Part shown: positions 1 to 12,398 of the stretch, piece after piece
Numbering within the stretch: the stretch's first letter is position 1
Layout of the letters: the number at the start of each line of letters is the position of its first letter
From: an uncultured Angelakisella sp.
GTDB lineage: Bacteria > Bacillota > Clostridia > Oscillospirales > Ruminococcaceae
Assembly (NCBI GenBank): GCA_904420255.1
Contig: CAJFUT010000061.1
Coordinates: forward strand, 1 to 12,398
Reading direction: 5' to 3'
Length of the DNA: 12,398 nt
Program-made: the position numbers and the translations under genes
Notes under the pieces: generated by a model
What the model saw: the letters and a program-made list of their open reading frames with translations, nothing else
Databases searched by the model: none
What the model was told of the DNA's origin: nothing

Positions 1-1440
1 CCAGGTGGAATAATCGCTTACGTTGAGGCCGAGGCTCTCCGCCAGGGCCCGCCGCTCGGCGGCCAGGCTTTCCAGGGCGGAGGCGGTGGTGTAGCTGGCC
101 TTATCGGCGGCGGTGAGGAGGTTGGGATATTTCTGGATGATGGCGTCCAGCGCCGCGGAACCCCGCTGGGCGATGAGCTCCTGGATGGTTTCCCAATCCC
201 CGGCCTCCCGGATTTCGGAGCTGGTAAGCCCGGCGTCCTCCGCCAGCTGGCGCCGTTCCTCCGAGAGGCTGATGCGGCGGCTCAGGGAGTAGCCCTGCTC
301 CTCGCTGTCCAGGAAGATGGCAAAGTCCTCCTGGCGGCGCTCGATGTAGTAGATCATGGTATCCAGGTCCAGCTCCTCCCGCTCGTCGTAGGTGAGGTAG
401 AGCTGGGCCAGCTCCTCCCGGCGCTGGGCCAGGGCCTGCTGCTCCTCGGCGGAGAGGGTGGCCTTCTCGTCCTCGGTGAGCCACTTGTTGGCGGCCAGGG
501 CGGCGGCCTCCTCCTGCTGCTTCTTCAGCTCGGCTTCCTGCTGCTTCTTCAGGTAGTCGTACCACTCCTGAGGCATGACGGGGTTGGTGTTGAGGGTGGC
601 CCCGGCGGTATCCACCTCGGTGGATTCCCCATCCCGGACCTTCCGGGCAAACACCACGAACCGGGCGATCCGCTCGCCGGTGTCGCTCTTGAAGGAATAG
701 TCGCAGGTGGAGAGGGTCAGGAGCTTGTCGTCGGTGCGCACATCCACCTTGGTGTTGATGATGGACCGCTCCCGGATCTTGTTGACATATTCCACCATAT
801 CCTCATCGCTGTACTTCTCGATGAAGTTGTGGTAGGGGAATTCCGGGTCGTCCTTTTTGCAGATGACCACGCCGAAAATCTTGTACATCCCCTCGTAATA
901 AACGCTGTCGTAGCTTATGAGGGGGTGCTGGCGGTAGTACTCGATGGATTTATAGTTGAGCAGCTCCCCGAACATCTGCCCGTCGTTCATATTGTGGGCG
1001 TAGATGATGGTGTTGGTGCTGGGCTCCTTCTGGGCCACCCGGTAGTCCACAAAGGCCACGCCGTGGTTGTTGTCGGCCCGGGTGAAGTCCCGGCGCTCGT
1101 AGTAGTCGTTATCGCTGGTCTGGACCACCACCATGTCCAGGTACTGGGTGCCGTCGATCTTGATCCAGCCCGCCACATCGGGGTTCTGGGCGTAGAGGGC
1201 GGCGAACTTGGCCAGGTAATCGTCGGGGTAGCCGTCCACGTCCTCGGGGCGGATGTTGCTGTTGCTGTAGGCGGACTGCTGGTCCGCCACCAGGCCCTTG
1301 TTCCGGTAGGATTCCAGGTAGACACTGGCAATATAGATCATGCAGCCGATGAACACCAGCAGGGAGATCCCCAGGATCACCAGCCTTGTGATGTCGGATT
1401 TTGTCAGCTTCTTGTAGCGTATCTTCTGGATCAGGTTCAT
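1..1440 (-). other. Class B sortase module with possible independent start at 1440
   Basis: This is the sortase part of the fused ORF, written as if started at the internal ATG at 1440 (480 codons visible, no stop). It would begin MNLIQKIRYKKLTKSD, a normal sortase N-terminus: basic residues, then a helix at residues 20-42 as signal anchor. The sortase domain spans about 75-270. His148, Cys246 and Arg260 fit the His-Cys-Arg triad of the family, which joins sorting-signal proteins to cell-wall peptide or to each other on the outer face of the membrane. Class B sortases are usually about 230-260 residues, so more than 200 residues after the domain are extra. This tail is Glu/Gln/Arg/Ala-rich and predicted helical. 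Units of the pattern ERR.LAE..GL recur at 395-405 and 462-472. No substrate with a sorting signal is visible in the window. Confidence 0.75.
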
Positions 1441-2865
1441 TCTCTTTGGTTCCTTTTCTTGGTTTTCCTGGGAGGCGGAGCCGGACCGGCTTCCCCCTCC
1501 CTTTTTCCCGCCGGCCTTTTTCCCCTTGGGCAGCAGCCCGGACAGGGCGGCCGAAGCCCCGGCCAGGGGGCCGCCGTATCCCGGGATGGCGTGGGCCATC
1601 CCCACGCCCCCCGGAAGGGGCTCGGGGTACTGCTGGGCGTAGAGCCGCAGCATATTCAGGGCCTGGGTGCAGGCGGCGGAGCGCAGGTCGTCGGGGCCGG
1701 ACCCCTCGGGCAGCAGGACCTTTTTGGCCCAGACCTCCCGGCCGTCGGTGATGGCCACATAAAGGAGCCCGGCTTCCTTCCCCTCCTGGGCCTGGGGCCG
1801 GCAGGAGATGGCGGCGCCCAGGTCCGCCTTGCCCTTGCGCCGCACGGCGTCGGCCATGGCCGCCGTCACCCGGCGGCTCACGCCTCCCGCCTCGGAGATG
1901 AGCTTTTTGGAAACCCCCAGCCGTTCCGCCTTCTGGGCGTCGCTGGCAAGGTTCATCCCGCCCACCATCACCTTGGCGCCGCCCAGGGCGGCCTGTCCCT
2001 CCTTGATGGCTTCCGCCAGCAGCCCGGCGGTGCCCGCCTCCGCCACCGCCAGGGTGAGGCCGTGGCTCTGGAACAGCCGGGCCACCTGCTGCCCCAGGGG
2101 CTCCCCCTGGGCGCTGGTGAGGTAGGCCCCCAGGCGGCTCTCCACCTGGCGGGCCATGGCGTCGCAGGCCGCCTGGGCCTCCGCCCGGGTGGCCCCGGTG
2201 GCGGAAATATGGATCTCGCACTCATTCCCCCGGCTGTGGAGGGTGAGCTTCGGATTTTCAGAACGCATCAGGGACCCCAGCTGCTCCCGGACCGGCGCCT
2301 CCCCCAGCTCCACCGCCCGGAGGGTCCGCTGGGCGGAAGCGCCGCCGCCCAGGCCCTCCAGCAGCCGCCGCACCGAGGCGGAAAAGCACCCGGCCAGCTC
2401 GCTGGGGGTGCCGGGAAGCACCAGCATCAGCTGCTTCTGGGCCCGGATGGCATAGCCCTGGACCAGCCCCGAGGGGTTGGGAATCCGCAGGCTGCCCTTG
2501 GGGATGGCGGCAAAGCTCCCCAGCTCTTCGGAGGAATAATCCCTGCCCATGCGGGAGGCCCGCTGGGCCAGCTGCTCCTCCAGGGCGGGGTCTCTCTGAA
2601 GCTCCAGCCCCAGCCCCGCCGAGATGGCCTGGGCCGCCGCCAGGGCGGCCTCCGGCTCCGCCGAGGGGAGCACCGCCACCAGGTCCCCCTGGCGGGACGC
2701 CTCCCGGAGGCGGTCGAACACCTCCTGGGACTGGGCCGGCACCATCCGGCGGCTGCCCATCCCGATGCCCACCGCGGCAAGCTCCCTCTGGAGGTATTCG
2801 CAGCTGGCCTCAAAAAAATTCTGATACAGGTTCTGGTTTCCGATTCCGATGATTTCAGCTTTCAT
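1..2865 (-). CDS. CinA-like pseudoenzyme fused to class B sortase (3' end outside window)
   Basis: One uninterrupted frame of 955 codons starts at ATG 2865 and has no stop before the window edge. Residues 1-165 resemble the MoaB/MogA-like CinA domain (MKAEIIGIG start, LPGTPSE at 150-156) but lack its GTELL-type motif. Residues 255-415 resemble the CinA/PncC NMN-deamidase domain, yet the usual ESCTGG reads EAGTAG (276-281), so the catalytic Ser is Ala277. The Tyr of TYSN..K is Ala307; Lys312 remains. Residues 416-475 are a Gly/Lys/Ser/Glu linker. Basic residues precede a membrane helix (about 495-517), then a class B sortase domain with His623 (YAHNMNDG), Cys721 (TLSTC) and Arg735 (RFVVFA). 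A charged helical extension follows from about 765. The topology is consistent: CinA part inside, sortase outside. It is the last visible gene of the desulfurase-thiI operon, 49 nt after thiI. An AGGAGG lies 13 nt upstream of the start. The ORF is certain; a fused product is inferred from the absence of any stop. Confidence 0.85.
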   Translation of the reverse strand, partial: MKAEIIGIGNQNLYQNFFEASCEYLQRELAAVGIGMGSRRMVPAQSQEVFDRLREASRQGDLVAVLPSAEPEAALAAAQAISAGLGLELQRDPALEEQLAQRASRMGRDYSSEELGSFAAIPKGSLRIPNPSGLVQGYAIRAQKQLMLVLPGTPSELAGCFSASVRRLLEGLGGGASAQRTLRAVELGEAPVREQLGSLMRSENPKLTLHSRGNECEIHISATGATRAEAQAACDAMARQVESRLGAYLTSAQGEPLGQQVARLFQSHGLTLAVAEAGTAGLLAEAIKEGQAALGGAKVMVGGMNLASDAQKAERLGVSKKLISEAGGVSRRVTAAMADAVRRKGKADLGAAISCRPQAQEGKEAGLLYVAITDGREVWAKKVLLPEGSGPDDLRSAACTQALNMLRLYAQQYPEPLPGGVGMAHAIPGYGGPLAGASAALSGLLPKGKKAGGKKGGGSRSGSASQENQEKEPKRMNLIQKIRYKKLTKSDITRLVILGISLLVFIGCMIYIASVYLESYRNKGLVADQQSAYSNSNIRPEDVDGYPDDYLAKFAALYAQNPDVAGWIKIDGTQYLDMVVVQTSDNDYYERRDFTRADNNHGVAFVDYRVAQKEPSTNTIIYAHNMNDGQMFGELLNYKSIEYYRQHPLISYDSVYYEGMYKIFGVVICKKDDPEFPYHNFIEKYSDEDMVEYVNKIRERSIINTKVDVRTDDKLLTLSTCDYSFKSDTGERIARFVVFARKVRDGESTEVDTAGATLNTNPVMPQEWYDYLKKQQEAELKKQQEEAAALAANKWLTEDEKATLSAEEQQALAQRREELAQLYLTYDEREELDLDTMIYYIERRQEDFAIFLDSEEQGYSLSRRISLSEERRQLAEDAGLTSSEIREAGDWETIQELIAQRGSAALDAIIQKYPNLLTAADKASYTTASALESLAAERRALAESLGLNVSDYSTW
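1451..1456 (-). promoter_or_regulatory. Internal ribosome-binding site before the sortase module
   Basis: On the minus strand AAAGGA ends 10 nt before the in-frame ATG at 1440. The preceding eleven codons are A-rich and include AGA and CAA, unlike the strongly GC-ending codons around them. That is what a retained intergenic ribosome-binding region would look like. It could allow a separate, shorter sortase to be made from the fused reading frame. Spacing is at the long end of the usual range. Confidence 0.4.
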
Positions 2866-2914: not shown

Positions 2915-4102
2915 TCAGCCCCGGTAGCGGCTGGAAAGAACGATAAGCTCCGCTTCCTCCGCGGCCCGGTCCAGGAGGGCGGGGTCCAGCCCCGCTTCCT
3001 CCTCCACCCGGGCCACCTCCTCTGCCCGGGGGCGGGTCTTGGGGTGCCGGGGGGTAAAGACGGTGCAGCAGTCCTCATAGGGGAGGATGGAGGTTTCAAA
3101 GGTGCCGATCTTCCGGGCGATGGCCACAATCTCGCTTTTGTCCAGCCCCACCGCCGGCCGCAGCACCGGCAGGCTGGTGACGCAGTCGGTGACGCCGATG
3201 GCCTGGAGGGTCTGGCTGGCCACCTGGCCCACGCTCTCCCCGGTAATGAGGCCGCCGCAGCCTTCCCGGAGGGCGATCCGCTCCGCCACCCGCATCATGG
3301 CCCGGCGCATCAGGAGGGTGAAGTATTCCTCCGGGCCCCGGTCCTTGAGCTGCTCCTGGATTTCGGTGAAGGGGACGATGAAAAGCCGGATCCGCCCGGT
3401 GTAGGGGAGGAGCTTCTCCCCCAGGGTGATGACCTTCTGCCGGGCCCGGTCGCTGGTGTAGGGGGGGCTGGCGAAGTGGACGGCGATGAGCTCCAGCCCC
3501 CGCTTGGCCATCATGTAGCCGGCCACCGGGCTGTCGATGCCCCCGGAAAGGAGGAGGGCCGCCTTGCCCCCGGTGCCCACCGGGATTCCCCCGGCGCCGG
3601 GGATCTGGTTTTTGTGGATGTAGGCGTCCTTTTCCCGGATTTCCACCGTCACGGTGACCTCCGGGTTTTCCACGTCCACCCGCAGGTGGTGGAACCGGGA
3701 CAGGAGCAGCCCCCCCAGCTCCCGGCAGATCTCCGGGGACTTCATGGGGAAGCTCTTATCGCTGCGCTTGGCGCCTACCTTGAAGGTCCTGGCCGCCAAA
3801 AGGTCCTCCCGGAGGTACTCCGGGGCGGCGGCGCAGATGGCCTCCCAGTCCTTGGGCACCACCAGGGCGGGGCAGAGGGCCGCGGCCCCGAACACCGTCT
3901 GGAGCCGGGCGATGACCCGGTCCATCTCCACATCCTCCGAAAGGGGCTCCACATAGATGGTGGACTGGCTCTTCCAGATGTGGAATTTCCCCAGGTCCTC
4001 CAGCCGCCGCCTGGCGTTTTTAATCATGGTATCCTCGAAGCTCCCGCGGTTCAGGCCCTTGAGGACCATTTCCCCGCATTTGAGCAGGACGATCTCCTTC
4101 AT
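2915..4102 (-). CDS. thiI: tRNA 4-thiouridine synthase ThiI
   Basis: This 395-residue protein matches ThiI, the ATP-dependent sulfurtransferase that makes 4-thiouridine at position 8 of tRNA and in some bacteria also supplies sulfur for the thiamine thiazole. An N-terminal ferredoxin-like/THUMP region (about 1-165) precedes an adenylating PP-loop domain with LLLSGGIDSPVAGY around 183-196; SGGIDS is at 186-191. The conserved Cys pair PYEDCC is at 341-346. The protein ends soon after, so it is the short form without the C-terminal rhodanese domain of the E. coli enzyme. Its sulfur must therefore come from a partner, which fits the cysteine desulfurase gene ending 44 nt upstream. The start ATG at 4102 has an AGGAG about 6 nt upstream. 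Family assignment is firm; whether it also serves thiamine synthesis cannot be seen. Confidence 0.95.
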   Translation of the reverse strand: MKEIVLLKCGEMVLKGLNRGSFEDTMIKNARRRLEDLGKFHIWKSQSTIYVEPLSEDVEMDRVIARLQTVFGAAALCPALVVPKDWEAICAAAPEYLREDLLAARTFKVGAKRSDKSFPMKSPEICRELGGLLLSRFHHLRVDVENPEVTVTVEIREKDAYIHKNQIPGAGGIPVGTGGKAALLLSGGIDSPVAGYMMAKRGLELIAVHFASPPYTSDRARQKVITLGEKLLPYTGRIRLFIVPFTEIQEQLKDRGPEEYFTLLMRRAMMRVAERIALREGCGGLITGESVGQVASQTLQAIGVTDCVTSLPVLRPAVGLDKSEIVAIARKIGTFETSILPYEDCCTVFTPRHPKTRPRAEEVARVEEEAGLDPALLDRAAEEAELIVLSSRYRG

Positions 4103-4146: not shown

Positions 4147-5280
4147 TTATTTCCTGGCCAGCTCCTCCAGCCCCAGGGCCAGCCAGCGGCAGAACTCGTC
4201 CACCTCTTCGGGGGTGTTCTCCCGGCAGAAGCTGACCCGCAGGGCCCCGTCCACCCGGTCCACAGACAGGCCCATGGCGGTGAGGACATGGCTCCTGGCC
4301 CCCTTGGCGCAGGCGGAGCCTCCGGACACGTAGATCTCCCGGCGCTCCAGGTAATGGATCATCACCTCGGAGGGGATCCCCGGGAGAGAGAGGTTCACTA
4401 TATAAGGTGCGCCGTCCGGGGGGGAATTGATGCACACCCCGGGCATTTCCCGCAATTTTTCCGTCAGCCGCTCCCGGAGCTGCCGGAACCGGGCCATGTT
4501 CTCCTCCCGGGCCTCCCACATCTGCCGGGCCGCCAGGCCGAAGGCGCAGGCGCCGGGGGTGTTCTCGGTGCCGGGGTGGAACCCCCGCTCCTGGCCGGAG
4601 CCGTAACAGAGGGGGAGGAGCCGGCTGCCCTTTGCGGCATAGATGGCCCCGATCCCCTTGGGGGCGTGGATCTTGTGGCCGCTGAGGGTGACAAAGTCCA
4701 CCCCCCAGCTTTTGGGGGAAACCGGGAGCTTACCGAAGCTCTGAACGCAGTCGGCGTGGATCAGCAGCCGGGGGTTGTTCCGCCGGGCCGCCCGGGCGAT
4801 GGCCCGCAGGTCGTTGACGGCGCCGGTTTCGCTGTTGACGTGCATCACCGAAAGGAGCACCGTCTTTTCGTCCACCGCCGCGGCGGCCTCCTCCGGGTCC
4901 ACGGCGCCCCCCGCCCGGGGCGGGAGGTACACCGCCTCAAAGCCGTTTTCCGAAAGGTGCCGCACCGGGGCCAGCACCGATTCGTGCTCCACCGCCGTGG
5001 TGACAACCTTGTTCCCCCGGCGGCGGGCGGCCATGGCCCCCCCGATCACCGCCAGGTTGTTCCCCTCGCTGCCGCAGGAGGTGAAGGCCACCTCCTCCGG
5101 CTCCGCCCCCAGGATCCGGGCGATCTCCCCCCGGGCCTGGGCCAGGGCCTGCTCCGCCAGGAAGCCCCGGCGGTGGAGGGAGGAGGGGTTGCCGTATTCT
5201 TCGGTCATCAGCTCCAGGGCCCGCCGGGCCGCCTCGGGGCTCACCCGGGTGGTGGCGCTGTTGTCAAAGTAAATCTCCAA
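4147..5280 (-). CDS. Cysteine desulfurase (NifS/IscS family)
   Basis: This 377-residue PLP enzyme removes sulfur from cysteine and passes it on as a persulfide. It opens with MEIYFDNSATTRVSP, typical of the family. His99 lies in VEHES, Asp177 and Gln180 in HADCVQ, the PLP-binding lysine is Lys203 in LSGHKIHAPKG, and the active-site cysteine is Cys324 in SGGSACAKGARS. The start is a TTG at 5280, chosen because it gives the family N-terminus and has AAGGAGG about 7 nt upstream. It is the first gene after a near-consensus promoter and lies directly before thiI, so its main role is probably feeding ThiI for tRNA thiolation, as the dedicated NifZ-ThiI pair does in Bacillus subtilis. No iscU, sufU or iscR-like gene is next to it, which argues against a general Fe-S assembly role. 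The exact subgroup is not certain, so no symbol is given. Confidence 0.93.
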   Translation of the reverse strand: MEIYFDNSATTRVSPEAARRALELMTEEYGNPSSLHRRGFLAEQALAQARGEIARILGAEPEEVAFTSCGSEGNNLAVIGGAMAARRRGNKVVTTAVEHESVLAPVRHLSENGFEAVYLPPRAGGAVDPEEAAAAVDEKTVLLSVMHVNSETGAVNDLRAIARAARRNNPRLLIHADCVQSFGKLPVSPKSWGVDFVTLSGHKIHAPKGIGAIYAAKGSRLLPLCYGSGQERGFHPGTENTPGACAFGLAARQMWEAREENMARFRQLRERLTEKLREMPGVCINSPPDGAPYIVNLSLPGIPSEVMIHYLERREIYVSGGSACAKGARSHVLTAMGLSVDRVDGALRVSFCRENTPEEVDEFCRWLALGLEELARK

Positions 5281-7472: not shown

Positions 7473-7498
7473 TGAAAACCGAAAGGAGGAAAGTAAAA

Positions 7499-8128
7499 AT
7501 GGACCTGAAAGCGTTTTTCAAGATGAACTACGGCCTTTACATCATCAGCTCCAAGGACGGGGAGGGGGCCGCCGGCTGCGTGGTGAACACCCTCACCCAG
7601 GTGACGGCGGAGCCCCCCAAGGTGATGCTGGCCATCCACAAGGACAACCGCACCACCCAGGCCATCCTGAATTCCGGGGTGTTCGCCGCCACGGTGCTGA
7701 CCCAGGACACCCCCATGGAGCTCATCGGCCGGTTCGGCTTCCAGTCCAGCCGGGAGGTGGATAAGTTCCAGGGCTATGAGGTGAAGGAGGACAAAAACGG
7801 CCTCCCCTGGCTCACCCGGCAGATGGCGGCCCGGTTCTCCTGCCGGGTGCTGGACCGGATGGACGCCGGCACCCATTACCTTTTCCTGGCCCAGGTGGAG
7901 GAGGCGGAAACCCTCTCCCAGGACGAGCCCATGACCTATTCCTACTACCACGCGGTGAAAAACGGCCGCACCCCGCCCAAGGCCTCCAGCTACCAGCCGG
8001 AGGAGTCCCCCAAAGCCCGGGGCTGGCGGTGCAAGATCTGCGGCTACGTCCTGGACGCCGAGGAGCTGCCGCCGGATTTTGTCTGCCCCATCTGCAAAAA
8101 GGGCGCGGAATTCTTCGAAAAGCTGTAA
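7499..8128 (+). CDS. hrb: High-molecular-weight rubredoxin (flavin reductase-rubredoxin fusion)
   Basis: This 209-residue protein has an N-terminal flavin reductase-like, FMN-binding split-barrel domain (about 1-160; MDLKAFFKMNYGLYIISS at the start) fused to a small C-terminal rubredoxin domain with Cys178-x2-Cys181 (CKICGYV) and Cys196-x2-Cys199 (CPIC). The four cysteines would hold one iron. Known fusions of this kind (Hrb of Moorella thermoacetica) carry electrons from NAD(P)H to the flavodiiron protein FprA, which reduces oxygen or nitric oxide in anaerobes. That role is inferred here, since no FprA gene is in view. The start at 7499 is set by AAAGGAGG just upstream; an earlier in-frame ATG at 7373 lies inside the preceding gene. 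It is a cytoplasmic protein, with no signal peptide. It lies 82 nt after the lipoprotein gene and ends at a strong terminator. Confidence 0.9.
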   Translation: MDLKAFFKMNYGLYIISSKDGEGAAGCVVNTLTQVTAEPPKVMLAIHKDNRTTQAILNSGVFAATVLTQDTPMELIGRFGFQSSREVDKFQGYEVKEDKNGLPWLTRQMAARFSCRVLDRMDAGTHYLFLAQVEEAETLSQDEPMTYSYYHAVKNGRTPPKASSYQPEESPKARGWRCKICGYVLDAEELPPDFVCPICKKGAEFFEKL

Positions 8129-8204: not shown

Positions 8205-8927
8205 TTATTGATTGGTGTAGAGCTGGCGGTAGGGGCTGCTGGTATTGGGGGTCAGCAGGTAGAACCGCCCCCGGAACAGCTCCTCCAGAGGGACGCCGAA
8301 GGTCTCGGCGTAGGCCTCCCCATAGGGGCGGAATTCCGCCAGGTCCTCCGGCCCCGCCTCCCGGGCGGACACCTGCTCCGGCAGGTCGAAGGGGAGGCTG
8401 TCGGCCCGCAGGAGGATTTTCCCACCGTGCATCCCGGTGCCGCAGAACCGCCCCACCGGGGGCTTCCCCTCCCGGCCCCGGCCCAGCACCAGGATCAGCC
8501 CCCCGGCCTGGTATTCCCCCAGGAAGCTGCCGGCGCCGCCGCCGACAACCACCGCCGGCACCCGGTCCCCGTAGGATTTCATGTGGATCCCCGCCCGGTA
8601 GCCCACGTCGTCCCGGACCAGGATGAGGCCGCCCCGCATCCCGTAGCCCAGGCCGTCGCCGCAGCTGCCGTGGACCACGATGCGCCCGGCGTTCATGGTG
8701 TCCCCCGCCGCCTCCTGGGCGTTGCCCCGGACCAGGATCTCCCCGCCGTCCAGGTAGGCCCCCAGGGCGTTGCCCGGGGTGCCCCGGATCTCCAGCCGGC
8801 CCCGGGCCAGGCCGGCCCCCAGGTACCGCTGGCCGTTGCAGCCCTCCACCAGGATGTCCTCCCCGGCGGCGGCCCGGATTTTTTCGTTCAGCTCCCGGTA
8901 GGGGAGCCCTCTGGCGTCGATGGTCAT
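8205..8927 (-). CDS. Glutamate synthase GXGXG-domain subunit (GltB C-terminal part as a separate protein)
   Basis: The 240-residue protein matches the GXGXG (alpha-subunit C-terminal) domain of glutamate synthase. This right-handed beta-helix acts as a structural spacer between the amidotransferase and FMN domains in the full-length enzyme. Repeated Gly-rich turns are visible: GNALGAYLDGG, GDTMNAGRIVVHG, GDGLGYGMRGG, GGGAGSFLGEYQAGG and GTGMHGGKI, with the typical strand spacing of about 20 residues. The start is ATG 8927 (MTIDARGLPY). Its AGGAGG is about 13 nt upstream and no alternative start lies between. It begins 53 nt after the FMN-domain gene and is the last gene before the shared terminator, so the three GltB parts occur in the same N-to-C order as in the single-chain enzyme. 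The last 40 residues, which are rich in aromatic residues, follow the helix and are not recognised. Confidence 0.9.
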   Translation of the reverse strand: MTIDARGLPYRELNEKIRAAAGEDILVEGCNGQRYLGAGLARGRLEIRGTPGNALGAYLDGGEILVRGNAQEAAGDTMNAGRIVVHGSCGDGLGYGMRGGLILVRDDVGYRAGIHMKSYGDRVPAVVVGGGAGSFLGEYQAGGLILVLGRGREGKPPVGRFCGTGMHGGKILLRADSLPFDLPEQVSAREAGPEDLAEFRPYGEAYAETFGVPLEELFRGRFYLLTPNTSSPYRQLYTNQ

Positions 8928-8980
8928 GGCTTTGGAAAAACCTCCTCCGCGGCCGGGGGCGCCCCCGCCGCTGTCTGTAT

Positions 8981-10483
8981 TCAGTCCCCGGCGTGCTTGA
9001 TGCCCAGGATTTCCAGCTCCTTCCGGGTCATCCCCACCCCCCGGAGCATCAGCCGGTTGCCCCGGAGGGCCTCGATGGAATTGATCCCCATGCCCCCCAT
9101 CATCTCCTCCATCTCCCGCCGCCAGGCGGTGATGAGGTTCACCAGCCGCCGGGCCCCCTCCTGGGGGTCCAGCCGGGCGGTGAGGTCGGGGCGCTGGGTG
9201 GCGATGCCCCAGGCGCAGCGGCCGCTGTGGCAGCTGCGGCAGAGGTGGCACCCCAGGGCCATGAGGGCGGCGGTGCCGATATAGACGGCGTCTGCCCCCA
9301 GGGCCACCGCCTTCACCACGTCGGCGGAGCAGCGGATGCTCCCCCCCGCCACCAGGGAAACCTCCCCCCGGATTCCCTCCTGGCGGAGCCGGGTGTCCAC
9401 GCTGGCCAGGGCCAGCTCGATGGGGATGCCCACGTTGTCCCGGATCATGGTGGGGGCCGCGCCGGTGCCGCCCCGGAAGCCGTCGATGGCGATGATATCG
9501 GCGCCGCTGCGGGCGATGCCGCTGGCGATGGCCGCCACGTTGTGGACCGCCGCCACCTTCACCAGCACCGGCTTTTCGTAGCCGGTGGCCTCCTTCAGGG
9601 AGCAGACCAGCTGGCGCAGGTCCTCGATGGAATAGATGTCGTGGTGGGGGGCGGGGCTGATGGCGTCGGTGCCCTCGGGGATCATCCGGGTCCGGGAGAT
9701 GTCCCCCACGATCTTGCTGCCGGGCAGGTGGCCGCCGATGCCGGGCTTGGCCCCCTGGCCCATTTTGATCTCGATGGCCGCCCCGGCCTTGAGGTAGCCG
9801 GGGTGGACCCCGAACCGCCCCGAGGCCACCTGGACGATGGTATTTGGTCCGTATTCATAGAGGTCCCGGTGGAGGCCGCCCTCCCCGGTGTTCCAGCAGA
9901 TGCCCAGCTCCCGGGCGGCCCGGGCCAGGCTGGCGTGGGCGTTGTAGCTCACCGAGCCGTAGGACATGGCGGCGAACATCACCGGCACCTGCAGCTCCAG
10001 CCGGGGGGGCAGGTCGGGGATGAGCCGCCCGCCGGCCCCCCGGCGGGGGCGCCCGCCCCTGGCCCCCAGGAAGGTGCGGGTTTCCATGGGCTCCCGGAGG
10101 GGGTCGATGGAGGGGTTGGTCACCTGGCTGGCGTTGAGGAGGATCCGGTCCCAGTAGACCGGGATTTTCCCCGGGCTCCCCATGGAGGAGAGGAGCACCC
10201 CGCCGGTTTCCGCCTGGCGGTAGATGTCGGCGATGGCCCCGGCGCTCCAGTTGGGGCTGCCGTTCCAGCAGTTGCGGCTGGGGAATACCTTCAGGGCCCC
10301 CACAGGGCAGCAGGCCACGCACCGCTGGCAGTTGACGCAGCCCCTCTCGTCGATGGTGAGGTTCCCGGCAGCGTCCCTGCCGTGGACGCCGTTGGGGCAC
10401 TGCTGGACGCAGATGCCGCATCCGGTGCAGCGGGCATTGTCCCGGGCCACCTCAAAGGAGGGGGCGATGTATTGGATTTTCAT
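8981..10483 (-). CDS. Glutamate synthase FMN domain with N-terminal 2x[4Fe-4S] ferredoxin module
   Basis: This 500-residue protein makes glutamate from 2-oxoglutarate and ammonia channelled from the amidotransferase subunit. A ferredoxin module comes first: Cys19-22-25-29 (CTGCGICVQQCP) and Cys49-52-55-59 (CVNCQRCVACCP), enough for two [4Fe-4S] clusters. The FMN-binding barrel follows from about 110, with AAMSYGSVSYNAHASLARAA, IEIKMGQGAKPGIGGHLPG, AIDGFRGGTGAAP and LVAGGSIRCSADVV. Cys412, 415, 418 and 423 in CHLCRSCHSGRCAWGIATQ lie where GltB carries its Fe-S cluster. The start at 10483 is fixed by AAGGAGG 9 nt upstream and a 4-nt ATGA overlap with the amidotransferase gene, which implies translational coupling. 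The reading frame stays open upstream to 11668, but that part is the out-of-frame shadow of the amidotransferase gene. No NAD(P)H-oxidising GltD gene is adjacent; the ferredoxin module may accept electrons directly from ferredoxin or from an unlinked reductase (inference). Confidence 0.93.
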   Translation of the reverse strand: MKIQYIAPSFEVARDNARCTGCGICVQQCPNGVHGRDAAGNLTIDERGCVNCQRCVACCPVGALKVFPSRNCWNGSPNWSAGAIADIYRQAETGGVLLSSMGSPGKIPVYWDRILLNASQVTNPSIDPLREPMETRTFLGARGGRPRRGAGGRLIPDLPPRLELQVPVMFAAMSYGSVSYNAHASLARAARELGICWNTGEGGLHRDLYEYGPNTIVQVASGRFGVHPGYLKAGAAIEIKMGQGAKPGIGGHLPGSKIVGDISRTRMIPEGTDAISPAPHHDIYSIEDLRQLVCSLKEATGYEKPVLVKVAAVHNVAAIASGIARSGADIIAIDGFRGGTGAAPTMIRDNVGIPIELALASVDTRLRQEGIRGEVSLVAGGSIRCSADVVKAVALGADAVYIGTAALMALGCHLCRSCHSGRCAWGIATQRPDLTARLDPQEGARRLVNLITAWRREMEEMMGGMGINSIEALRGNRLMLRGVGMTRKELEILGIKHAGD

Positions 10484-11616
10484 TGGGCGTTTCCTCCTTT
10501 GGCGGCTTTCCGGGGCAGCCGGTCCAGGGTATAGATGACCGCTTCCCCGCCCCGGGGGGCCCAGAGGCGGTCCAGCTCCGGCGCCACCTCCCGGATGGCG
10601 CACTCCTCGCTGGCGATGTAGACCCGGTCCCCCCGTTCCCCCACCACCATGCTCCGGAGCTTCAGCCGGTCGTTGAGGGCCAGGATTCCCCCGGTGAAGC
10701 CCAGGAGGATGGAAAAGGGCCCGGTGACCAGCAGGCTGGCGTACCGCTCCCGGAGGTAGGTGGAAATCGCCCGCTCCTCCGGGGGCAGGCGGCGGATGGT
10801 GGACCAGAAGGGGGCCGCCGCCACCCTGGCCGCTTCCTCCAGGGTCAGGCCCTCCCGGCGCTGGAGGTAGTCGAAAAGGTAGGTGAGCACCTCGGTGTCG
10901 GTCTGGAGGCTGCAGTGGTAGCCGTACATCTCCAGGTAGCGGCGGTTGGCGTCGTAGGAGGAGATTTCCCCGTTGTGGACCACCGTGCGGTCCAGCAGGG
11001 CGAAGGGGTGGGCCCCGCCCCACCAGCCGGGGGTGTTGGTGGGGTAGCGGCCGTGGGCGGTCCAGCAGTAGCCGGCGTATTCCTCCAGGCGGTAGAACTC
11101 CCCGATGTCCTCGGGGAAGCCCACCCCCTTGAAGACCCCCATGTTCTTGCCGCTGGAAAAGACATAGGCCCCGTCGATGCGGGTGTTGATGTAAAAGACG
11201 CAGCGGACGGTGAACTCCTCCTCGTCCAGGTGGCTGTCCGCCAGCCGGGTGGGGAGGGGGGTGACGAAGTACCGCCAGATGAGGGGTTCCCCGGTGACCC
11301 GGGGGGTTTTCCGCACCGGGATTTTGGAGAGGTTCACCACGTCGAACCGCCTCTCCAGAAATTTCTCGCACTCCTCCTTGGCGGCGCAGGTGTCGAAAAA
11401 GATGTGGAAGGCGTAGAGGTCGGCGTACTGGGGGTAGATGCCGTAGCCGGCAAAGCCGCCCCCCAGGCCGTTGCTCCTGTCGTGCATCACGGCGATGGAG
11501 CGGACCATCTCCCCGCCGCCGATGGCCTCCCCCGACCGGGAAAAGACGCCGGAGATGGCGCACCCCGAGGGGATGCGCACCTCCCCCTCCCGGGGGGGCC
11601 GGTTCCCCATGTCCAT
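10480..11616 (-). CDS. Glutamate synthase class II glutamine amidotransferase subunit (GltB N-terminal part)
   Basis: The 378-residue protein is the glutaminase part of a split glutamate synthase. It hydrolyses glutamine and passes ammonia to the FMN subunit. The probable nucleophile is Cys19 in RIPSGCAISGVFSRSG. Class II amidotransferases act through an N-terminal Cys, so residues 1-18 would need removal as a short propeptide. This is inferred from single-chain GltB, which also matures this way. Other family motifs are HGRYPTNTPG (188-197), HNGE (214-217) and SLQTDTEV (236-243), and FAGYGIYPQYADLYAFHIFF lies in the middle of a family-typical N-terminal region. ATG 11616 has AAGGAG 8 nt upstream; ATG 11610 is a second possible start. 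It is the first gene of the operon, preceded by a leader terminator and promoter, and overlaps the FMN-domain gene by 4 nt. Confidence 0.9.
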   Translation of the reverse strand: MDMGNRPPREGEVRIPSGCAISGVFSRSGEAIGGGEMVRSIAVMHDRSNGLGGGFAGYGIYPQYADLYAFHIFFDTCAAKEECEKFLERRFDVVNLSKIPVRKTPRVTGEPLIWRYFVTPLPTRLADSHLDEEEFTVRCVFYINTRIDGAYVFSSGKNMGVFKGVGFPEDIGEFYRLEEYAGYCWTAHGRYPTNTPGWWGGAHPFALLDRTVVHNGEISSYDANRRYLEMYGYHCSLQTDTEVLTYLFDYLQRREGLTLEEAARVAAAPFWSTIRRLPPEERAISTYLRERYASLLVTGPFSILLGFTGGILALNDRLKLRSMVVGERGDRVYIASEECAIREVAPELDRLWAPRGGEAVIYTLDRLPRKAAKGGNAQ

Positions 11617-11949: not shown

Positions 11950-12006
11950 GGGGCCTGCCGCCCCCACCCGGCAAACGCGGAATTTTTCTTGAGGAGGTCT
12001 GCCAGC

Positions 12007-12398
12007 ATGAGCAAGGTACCCGAACTGTTTGGAAGCATGGTCTTTTCCGACGTGGTGATGAAGGAGCGCCTTCCCCACGACACCTACCGGGCCATGAAGA
12101 AGGCCATGGCCGGCGGCGTCAGCCTGGACCGGGCCATCGCCGACGTGGTGGCCAGCGCCATGAAGGACTGGGCCATCGAAAAGGGGGCCACCCATTTCAC
12201 CCACTGGTTCCAGCCCATGACCGGCATCACCGCCGAAAAGCACGACAGCTTCATCCGCCCCGACGGGGAGGGCCGGGTCATTATGGAATTTTCCGGCAAG
12301 GAGCTGGTGAAGGGGGAGCCGGACGCCTCCTCCTTCCCCTCCGGGGGGCTGCGGGCCACCTTCGAGGCCCGGGGCTACACCGCCTGGGACCCCACCAG
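12007..12398 (+). CDS. glnN: Glutamine synthetase type III, N-terminal part (cut by window edge)
   Basis: The first 130 residues are visible and the frame is open to the edge. The start [15 protein letters not shown] and the stretch [20 protein letters not shown] (60-79) are characteristic of the GSIII (GlnN) family. These are large homomeric enzymes of roughly 700 residues that make glutamine from glutamate, ammonia and ATP. The ATP- and glutamate-binding parts lie beyond the window. ATG 12007 has GAGGAGG 9 nt upstream. It is transcribed divergently from the glutamate synthase operon, which together gives a GS-GOGAT ammonia-assimilation unit. The leader terminator at 11892-11949 indicates control by termination/antitermination. 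The frame is also open upstream to an ATG at 11890, which lacks a ribosome-binding site and is not preferred. Confidence 0.93.

Follow-up and report, generated by a model that had tools for sequence, protein, structure and literature searches.

We analysed a stretch of 12,398 nt (hereafter the window) on contig CAJFUT010000061.1 of a draft genome of an uncultured Angelakisella sp. (GCA_904420255.1; 331 contigs, 81 percent complete), with all positions given on the forward strand. The gene at 1..2865 (minus strand) joins a CinA-type module to a class B sortase in one frame, and this fusion is real and widespread, more general than a preliminary description of the same DNA could see. Weighing the evidence below, we consider it probable that the fusion was born in an operon, that its sortase is a working class B enzyme, and that its CinA part is a pseudoenzyme, serving as a scaffold or riding as a passenger, which decayed beside a second, intact CinA.

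On translation, the frame from 2865 to 1 contains no stop over 955 codons, as the preliminary description had it, and it runs off the start of both window and contig, its 3' end lying beyond. All parts of the gene are on the minus strand. The CinA-like part reported earlier stands, although it comprises three domains, not two: a MoCF-like (COG1058) domain (residues 1-170, 2356..2865), a CinA KH domain (residues 179-249, 2119..2331) and an NMN deamidase-like PncC domain (residues 256-407, 1645..2100), the last supported by the predicted fold as well as by profile. Pfam recognises CinA_KH at 179-249 with 52.9 bits (cut-off 27) and CinA at 256-407 with 76.4 bits (cut-off 23.5), while MoCF_biosynth at 5-169 is sub-threshold (21.3 bits, cut-off 26.6). 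A linker follows (residues 409-488, 1402..1641), of which 441-475 is predicted to be disordered (predicted local distance difference test score under 50), and then one membrane helix at about residues 489-515 (1321..1401), placed by sequence after the basic stretch KIRYKKLTK; in the model the helix spans 489-534. The class B sortase domain occupies residues 553-745 (631..1209), with His624, Cys721 and Arg735, and Pfam matches Sortase at 568-743 with 39.5 bits (cut-off 26.6). The helix and the complete sortase with its His/Cys/Arg residues had been listed before; a C-terminal extension of about 190 residues had been omitted, predicted to form a helical hairpin (residues 766-955, 1..570), which the contig end cuts and which continues in relatives. 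The order of parts agrees with the transmembrane protein proposed earlier, fitting a CinA module in the cytosol, a single signal-anchor helix and a sortase on the outer side. Judged from the basic stretch preceding the helix, the CinA side would be cytosolic and the sortase side outside.

Since the gene sits at a contig end in a draft genome, an assembly or sequencing artefact could in principle have joined two genes. However, the frame is unbroken in all nine genus genomes whose contig spans the CinA part (the Angelakisella sp. genome itself and eight others), none of which shows the stop between the two parts that the preliminary description had named as counter-evidence, or any shift of frame there; in a tenth, G299, the contig starts within the sortase. 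A protein search, which scored only the 7,992 candidates with the most shared words, returned 60 relatives, about 41 of which are fusions by coverage or Pfam codes, and the 38 fusion relatives that we aligned measure 841 to 1403 aa at 27-86 percent identity. Chains holding both CinA and sortase, which that description had suggested looking for, thus occur in the genus, in other genera and in other families. Among the named carriers of the fusion are an Angelakisella metagenome-assembled genome and the isolates Marasmitruncus massiliensis, Negativibacillus massiliensis, Marseille-P2935 and Merdimmobilis hominis, although in Merdimmobilis hominis the recognised part is the N-terminal CinA only. 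Beyond the window's own family, fusions were found in families f4, f9, f15, f23 and f24, and the two genes lie side by side in f9, f16 and f24. With an identical frame throughout the genus, in tens of genera and in named isolates, and with relatives free of any break at the join, we rejected the artefact on the genus and family surveys and regard it as practically out of the question.

The origin of the fusion can be read from its gene neighbourhood. In the window, the upstream neighbours are thiI (2915..4102, minus; PF02568, 223.7 bits) and a gene that Pfam names class-V aminotransferase (4147..5280, minus; PF00266, 244 bits), presumably a nifS/iscS-type cysteine desulfurase. Both belong to a recurring locus: across 97 fetched thiI loci, whichever of the genes occur follow a single order, with nifS first, then thiI, cinA or pncC, between one and four copies of srtB, and a SpoIID-like gene. 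The table of locus order holds only genes 3' of thiI on thiI's strand, and a separate unfiltered listing was used alongside it. Both cinA/pncC and srtB are present in 80 of these loci (48 fused, 32 separate) and one of the partners is missing in the other 17; as the loci were fetched because of hits, 48:32 is not a population frequency. The fusions unite neighbours in their existing order, as CinA-SrtB, PncC-SrtB, SrtB-SpoIID, CinA-SpoIID and even three-part CinA-SrtB-SpoIID proteins. On the best ThiI+NifS tree at least 6 switches between the fused and separate states are needed, and by the starred branches the 'separate' group requires 3 or more. The two families are operon neighbours that fused, probably several times. 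Since the gene order recurs and it is neighbours that fuse, the link between the two families is one of gene neighbourhood followed by fusion. The preliminary description knew of no described link between them; this holds for the open-licence PMC literature, where none of the papers listed describes a CinA-sortase link or such a fusion as judged by title and abstract start, but not for the genomes, where cinA or pncC lies directly upstream of srtB.

According to the reading that we prefer, an old fusion would have arisen at the locus nifS-thiI-cinA-srtB(-spoIID) when the break between cinA and the adjoining srtB disappeared. A cytosolic enzyme would thereby have come to stand in front of a membrane-anchored sortase, whose topology should permit such an addition at the N-terminus. 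The same locus could also be taken as an order-wide functional module, in which CinA/PncC, class B sortase and SpoIID-like proteins work together at the envelope, with the fusions as the sign of a physical complex. The recurrent order with every kind of neighbour fusion, and the fusions and adjacent genes in families beyond the window's own, speak for it. However, the tRNA thiolation genes nifS and thiI stand at this locus too, and no role at the envelope is known for them, so the order alone may reflect a housekeeping operon, and each member is degenerate or missing in some lineage; we therefore consider such a module unlikely.

As for the SpoIID-like member, a SpoIID/LytB-like protein is the downstream neighbour or third fusion part in many relatives, the label being based on a profile built in this analysis, on Pfam codes of fused relatives and on Pfam matches above cut-off in two of three neighbours tested. 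The window itself ends inside the fusion; a SpoIID search of its genome gave one sub-threshold match (20.7 bits, cut-off 23), and the 18-kb loci of two genus mates, G029 and G140, contain no SpoIID-like gene. Tandem arrays of three to four srtB upstream of a SpoIID-like gene were seen at L140, L135, L138 and L146 (the first srtB of L135 is cut). At L061, L063, L064, L066 and L097, the gene after an intact cinA combines remnants of KH/PncC with a degenerate sortase; this second gene also carries a SpoIID domain at L063 and L097 and runs off the contig or fetched stretch at the other three.

The CinA part of the window protein shows losses at both catalytic sites. The AtCinA mutants S31A, Y58A, K63A and R145A are reported to have undetectable activity (PMC5384747), and a metal-binding role is reported for Asp76 of TtCinA (PMC4246079). 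In AtCinA numbering, the window protein carries Ala at Ser31 (the catalytic Ser; Ala277 by alignment, 2035..2037, minus) and Ala at Tyr58, with Lys63 and Arg145 kept, and the AGP block is lost except for an aligned Pro. In the MoCF-like part, PSAEPEAAL replaces GGLGPTxDD and the Asp pair is absent; we take Asp76 of TtCinA to lie within this GGxGPTxDD motif. Neither NCBIfam TIGR00199 (50.5 bits, cut-off 68.9) nor PRK00549 (197.7 bits, cut-off 379) is reached. The fold, by contrast, appears to be kept: the predicted PncC domain superposes on AtCinA 2a9s at 1.6 Å over 154 residues, a MoCF-like fold is predicted, and the three-domain CinA fold is retained in the model, where the fold search informs mainly the CinA and sortase regions and barely tests the others. 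Compared with bifunctional CinA (COG1058-KH-PncC; TtCinA 4ct8/4uux, S. mutans 6mr3), the window protein therefore lacks residues of both active sites and, by predicted topology, is membrane-bound. From these losses and the modelled fold, we infer that its CinA part is a pseudoenzyme. CinA-SrtB proteins with an intact CinA from the same bacterial order, such as L111, L124 and P0044, share the fusion with the window (L111 and L124 the locus too) but, unlike it, keep GGLGPTxDD and AESCTGG; L111 and L124, whose fused CinA is the only one found in the genome, may be true bifunctional enzymes.

Conservation across relatives points in the same direction. Among 18 window-like proteins, Ser31 is lost in 11, and mean pair identity is 0.45 in the PncC site columns against 0.43 elsewhere, and 0.38 against 0.42 for the MoCF/KH site. 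The corresponding values are 1.00 against 0.46 and 0.98 against 0.50 in 10 intact fused proteins, and 1.00 against 0.50 and 0.98 against 0.53 in 35 stand-alone CinAs. Since the site columns of the window-like set are no better conserved than the rest, the pocket is released from constraint; the remainder of the module is not visibly released. Ratios of nonsynonymous to synonymous substitution (dN/dS) among the window protein, L003 and L032 were 0.28-0.66 for the CinA domains, 0.43-0.74 for the linker, 0.17-0.27 for the sortase and 0.54-1.19 for the C-terminal extension, values that are a rough guide, as dS is high; on more distant pairs, which are near saturation, the estimates scatter to above 1.

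These data also bear on the proposal in the preliminary description that a cytosolic ligand signal is coupled through the CinA part, which they do not support, given the losses at both catalytic sites and pocket columns no more conserved than the rest of the module. In its fullest form, the module would still bind a ligand, either a nucleotide or a pyridine compound, but not turn it over, and the membrane helix would relay the signal to the sortase. The predicted fold, the kept pocket residues Lys63, Glu30, Glu156 and partly Glu187, and a module that looks constrained in close relatives would all suit this mechanism. However, column conservation disfavours sensing through the old pocket, the 35 disordered residues between module and helix would conduct a conformational signal poorly, and at L086, L118, L122 and L128 the module is shrunken or absent while the sortase is retained. 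We consider a ligand-coupled sortase very unlikely. Under the pseudoenzyme reading, the CinA part might be kept as a dimer-forming scaffold, or because the N-terminal part of a membrane protein must stay foldable; it may act as a tether, as a scaffold or as a mere passenger.

A possible reason for the decay lies elsewhere in the genomes. Using genome search tables at E <= 1e-12, we found a second CinA in none of the genomes with an intact fused CinA (0/18 on the tree, 0/20 overall) and in nearly all of those with a dead CinA at the locus (26/28 on the tree, 27/30 overall). Fisher's test gives p = 7e-11 on tree loci, although shared descent leaves only one independent pair by starred branches, or six on the best tree. 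The test left out five of the 48 fused loci (L061, L063, L064, L066 and L097), where degenerate genes follow an intact separate cinA. CinA-SpoIID loci were included, L087 and L130 among the 18 intact and L044 among the 28 dead; L033, with an intact PncC motif and a MoCF motif that is not, was counted as intact, and L151 (PncC-SrtB-SpoIID with intact motif, no second copy and no thiI) was left uncounted. Genomes with fusions that fall outside the second-CinA searches include G163, G129, G225 and G145, and G091, with no CinA at the locus, is outside the test; G022 and G061 each carry a second copy that is either partial or PncC-only.

The window's own genome carries such a second CinA (L002 / L292) on contig C176, separate, intact and with GGLGPTYDD, in a family-wide clade with few shared neighbours. 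In all, 30 full-length stand-alone CinAs carry GGLGPTYDD and cluster with support 99, the partial copy L289 falling inside; 25 are second copies or the C176 copy, and five (L067, L090, L091, L092 and L131) are the sole CinA found in their genomes. The pgsA-cinA-recA-type gene order is familiar for stand-alone cinA, and we rejected it as the setting of the second CinA, as no common context emerged within about 3 kb. Recurring neighbours are cluster c4 in four loci and c6 in three, all in the window genus and gyrase/topoisomerase-like by eye, as well as c3 in four and c5 in three. The simplest account is that the separate CinA makes the fused copy dispensable as an enzyme: presumably it does the chemistry, so the fused copy could decay. 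The reverse order of events is also conceivable.

In contrast to the CinA sites, the catalytic residues of the sortase are intact. The window protein scores 156.5 bits against class B sortase TIGR03064 (NCBIfam; cut-off 153.75), His624, Cys721 and Arg735 are invariant across 39 aligned fusions, and a class B fold is predicted; of the 27 fused loci whose CinA is dead, 21 keep the sortase motif. The fused sortase is the only PF04203 match in the window's genome at its 81 percent completeness. On contig C98 of the same genome, a 164-codon frame (L306) has a C-terminal NPSTG sorting signal with a hydrophobic stretch and a basic tail behind it, its sequence making it a likely sortase substrate which the fused sortase would use, and similar proteins occur in G029 (NPSTG) and G210 (NPATG). 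For sorting signals we relied on reading by eye, since the TIGR01167 profile matched all 14 control genomes, above cut-off in nine; eight of the 13 loci viewed gave a frame fitting the pattern. Motifs and model together suggest that the fused protein is a functional class B sortase which attaches NPxTG proteins on the outside of the cell. Relative to class B SrtB of B. anthracis (2oqw), S. aureus (1qwz) and C. difficile (4ux7), it adds about 480 cytosolic CinA-type residues before the anchor and a helical extension behind the sortase. A mirror case was seen in L042, L043, L045, L080, L085 and L096, where CinA is intact and a sortase-like domain lacks His and Cys (a pseudo-sortase), four of the six with a SpoIID domain behind. 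The C-terminal tail of the P0034 fusion is a Cys/His-rich repeat, about CDTNGCTLPKGHxGLHSNEK.

The linker holds a candidate internal ribosome-binding site and start (1438..1455, minus), with AAGGA at 1455-1451, ten bases, and ATG at 1440-1438 (Met476). One frame could then yield two products, the long fusion and a CinA-less sortase from Met476, the site being the predicted former intergenic ribosome-binding site of srtB. It lies immediately before the membrane helix, where the N-terminal part proper to the sortase begins. In a count on nine genus species with duplicate loci merged (L153 = L235, L154 = L006), a linker site of at least five bases at spacing 4-11 is present in seven, L235 having AGGAG at spacing 6 from different residues, but absent in L234 and L236. 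Such sites precede 7/24 linker ATGs compared with 4/157 other in-frame ATGs, and 39/1,220 of the latter in a wider set; the p value of 7e-5 is no true probability, as the species share ancestry. Likewise, K[ED]xxxM occurs in 15 of 39 fusion linkers against 8 of 701 other Met, but the linkers are rich in Lys and Glu, the motif is found in none of 10 more distant aligned fusions, and among the intact CinA-SrtB fusions checked only L075 has a five-base site. We put the internal start forward tentatively, as possible but somewhat doubtful. A broader combination would be an order-wide envelope module of CinA/PncC, as an enzyme of NAD recycling, with a class B sortase and a SpoIID-like protein, in which the CinA pseudoenzyme of the window lineage organises the sortase from the cytosol while the internal start tunes tethered versus free sortase; this seems to us quite unlikely.

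Several observations weigh against a fusion with a dead CinA, a working sortase and a second CinA in charge of the chemistry. Ser31 is kept in seven of the 18 window-like proteins, some of which may not be fully dead, and other residues persist in most (Lys63 in 16, Glu30 in 15, Met88 and Glu156 in 17 each). In the closest relatives there are signs of constraint on the CinA domains, and the module may therefore be more than a passenger. The sortase motif is also lost in five of the 27 fused loci with a dead CinA, with a sixth cut by the contig, and the genus mate G029 has six further sortase-like matches, meaning that the fused sortase need not be the main one. The complementarity rests on the few independent events given above, and G210, G032 and G026 (92, 91 and 87 percent complete) have a degenerate fused CinA and no second copy.

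Two protein families without a link in the literature listed are now joined through a recurring locus and repeated fusions, which offers, by association, a way into the biology of sortases in Oscillospiraceae of the gut and in families related to them. The loci can be lined up in a natural series that starts with separate genes, passes through fused enzymes that are first intact and then dead but still folded, and ends with loss of the domain; it raises the question of why bacteria keep a dead domain. The internal start, if true, would be a simple route to two products after gene fusion. As cultured isolates carry the fusion, it is open to experiment.

Turning to the remainder of the window, a 981-aa open frame on the strand opposite the fusion gene is probably its high-GC shadow, and an Rfam scan of the window at gathering thresholds gave no match. 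A flavin reductase domain is fused to a rubredoxin-like domain at 7493-8125, glutamate synthase-like parts are spread over three genes (GATase, ferredoxin-Glu_synthase and GXGXG) at 8205-11616 on the minus strand, and 12004-12396 on the plus strand encodes the first part of a type III glutamine synthetase.

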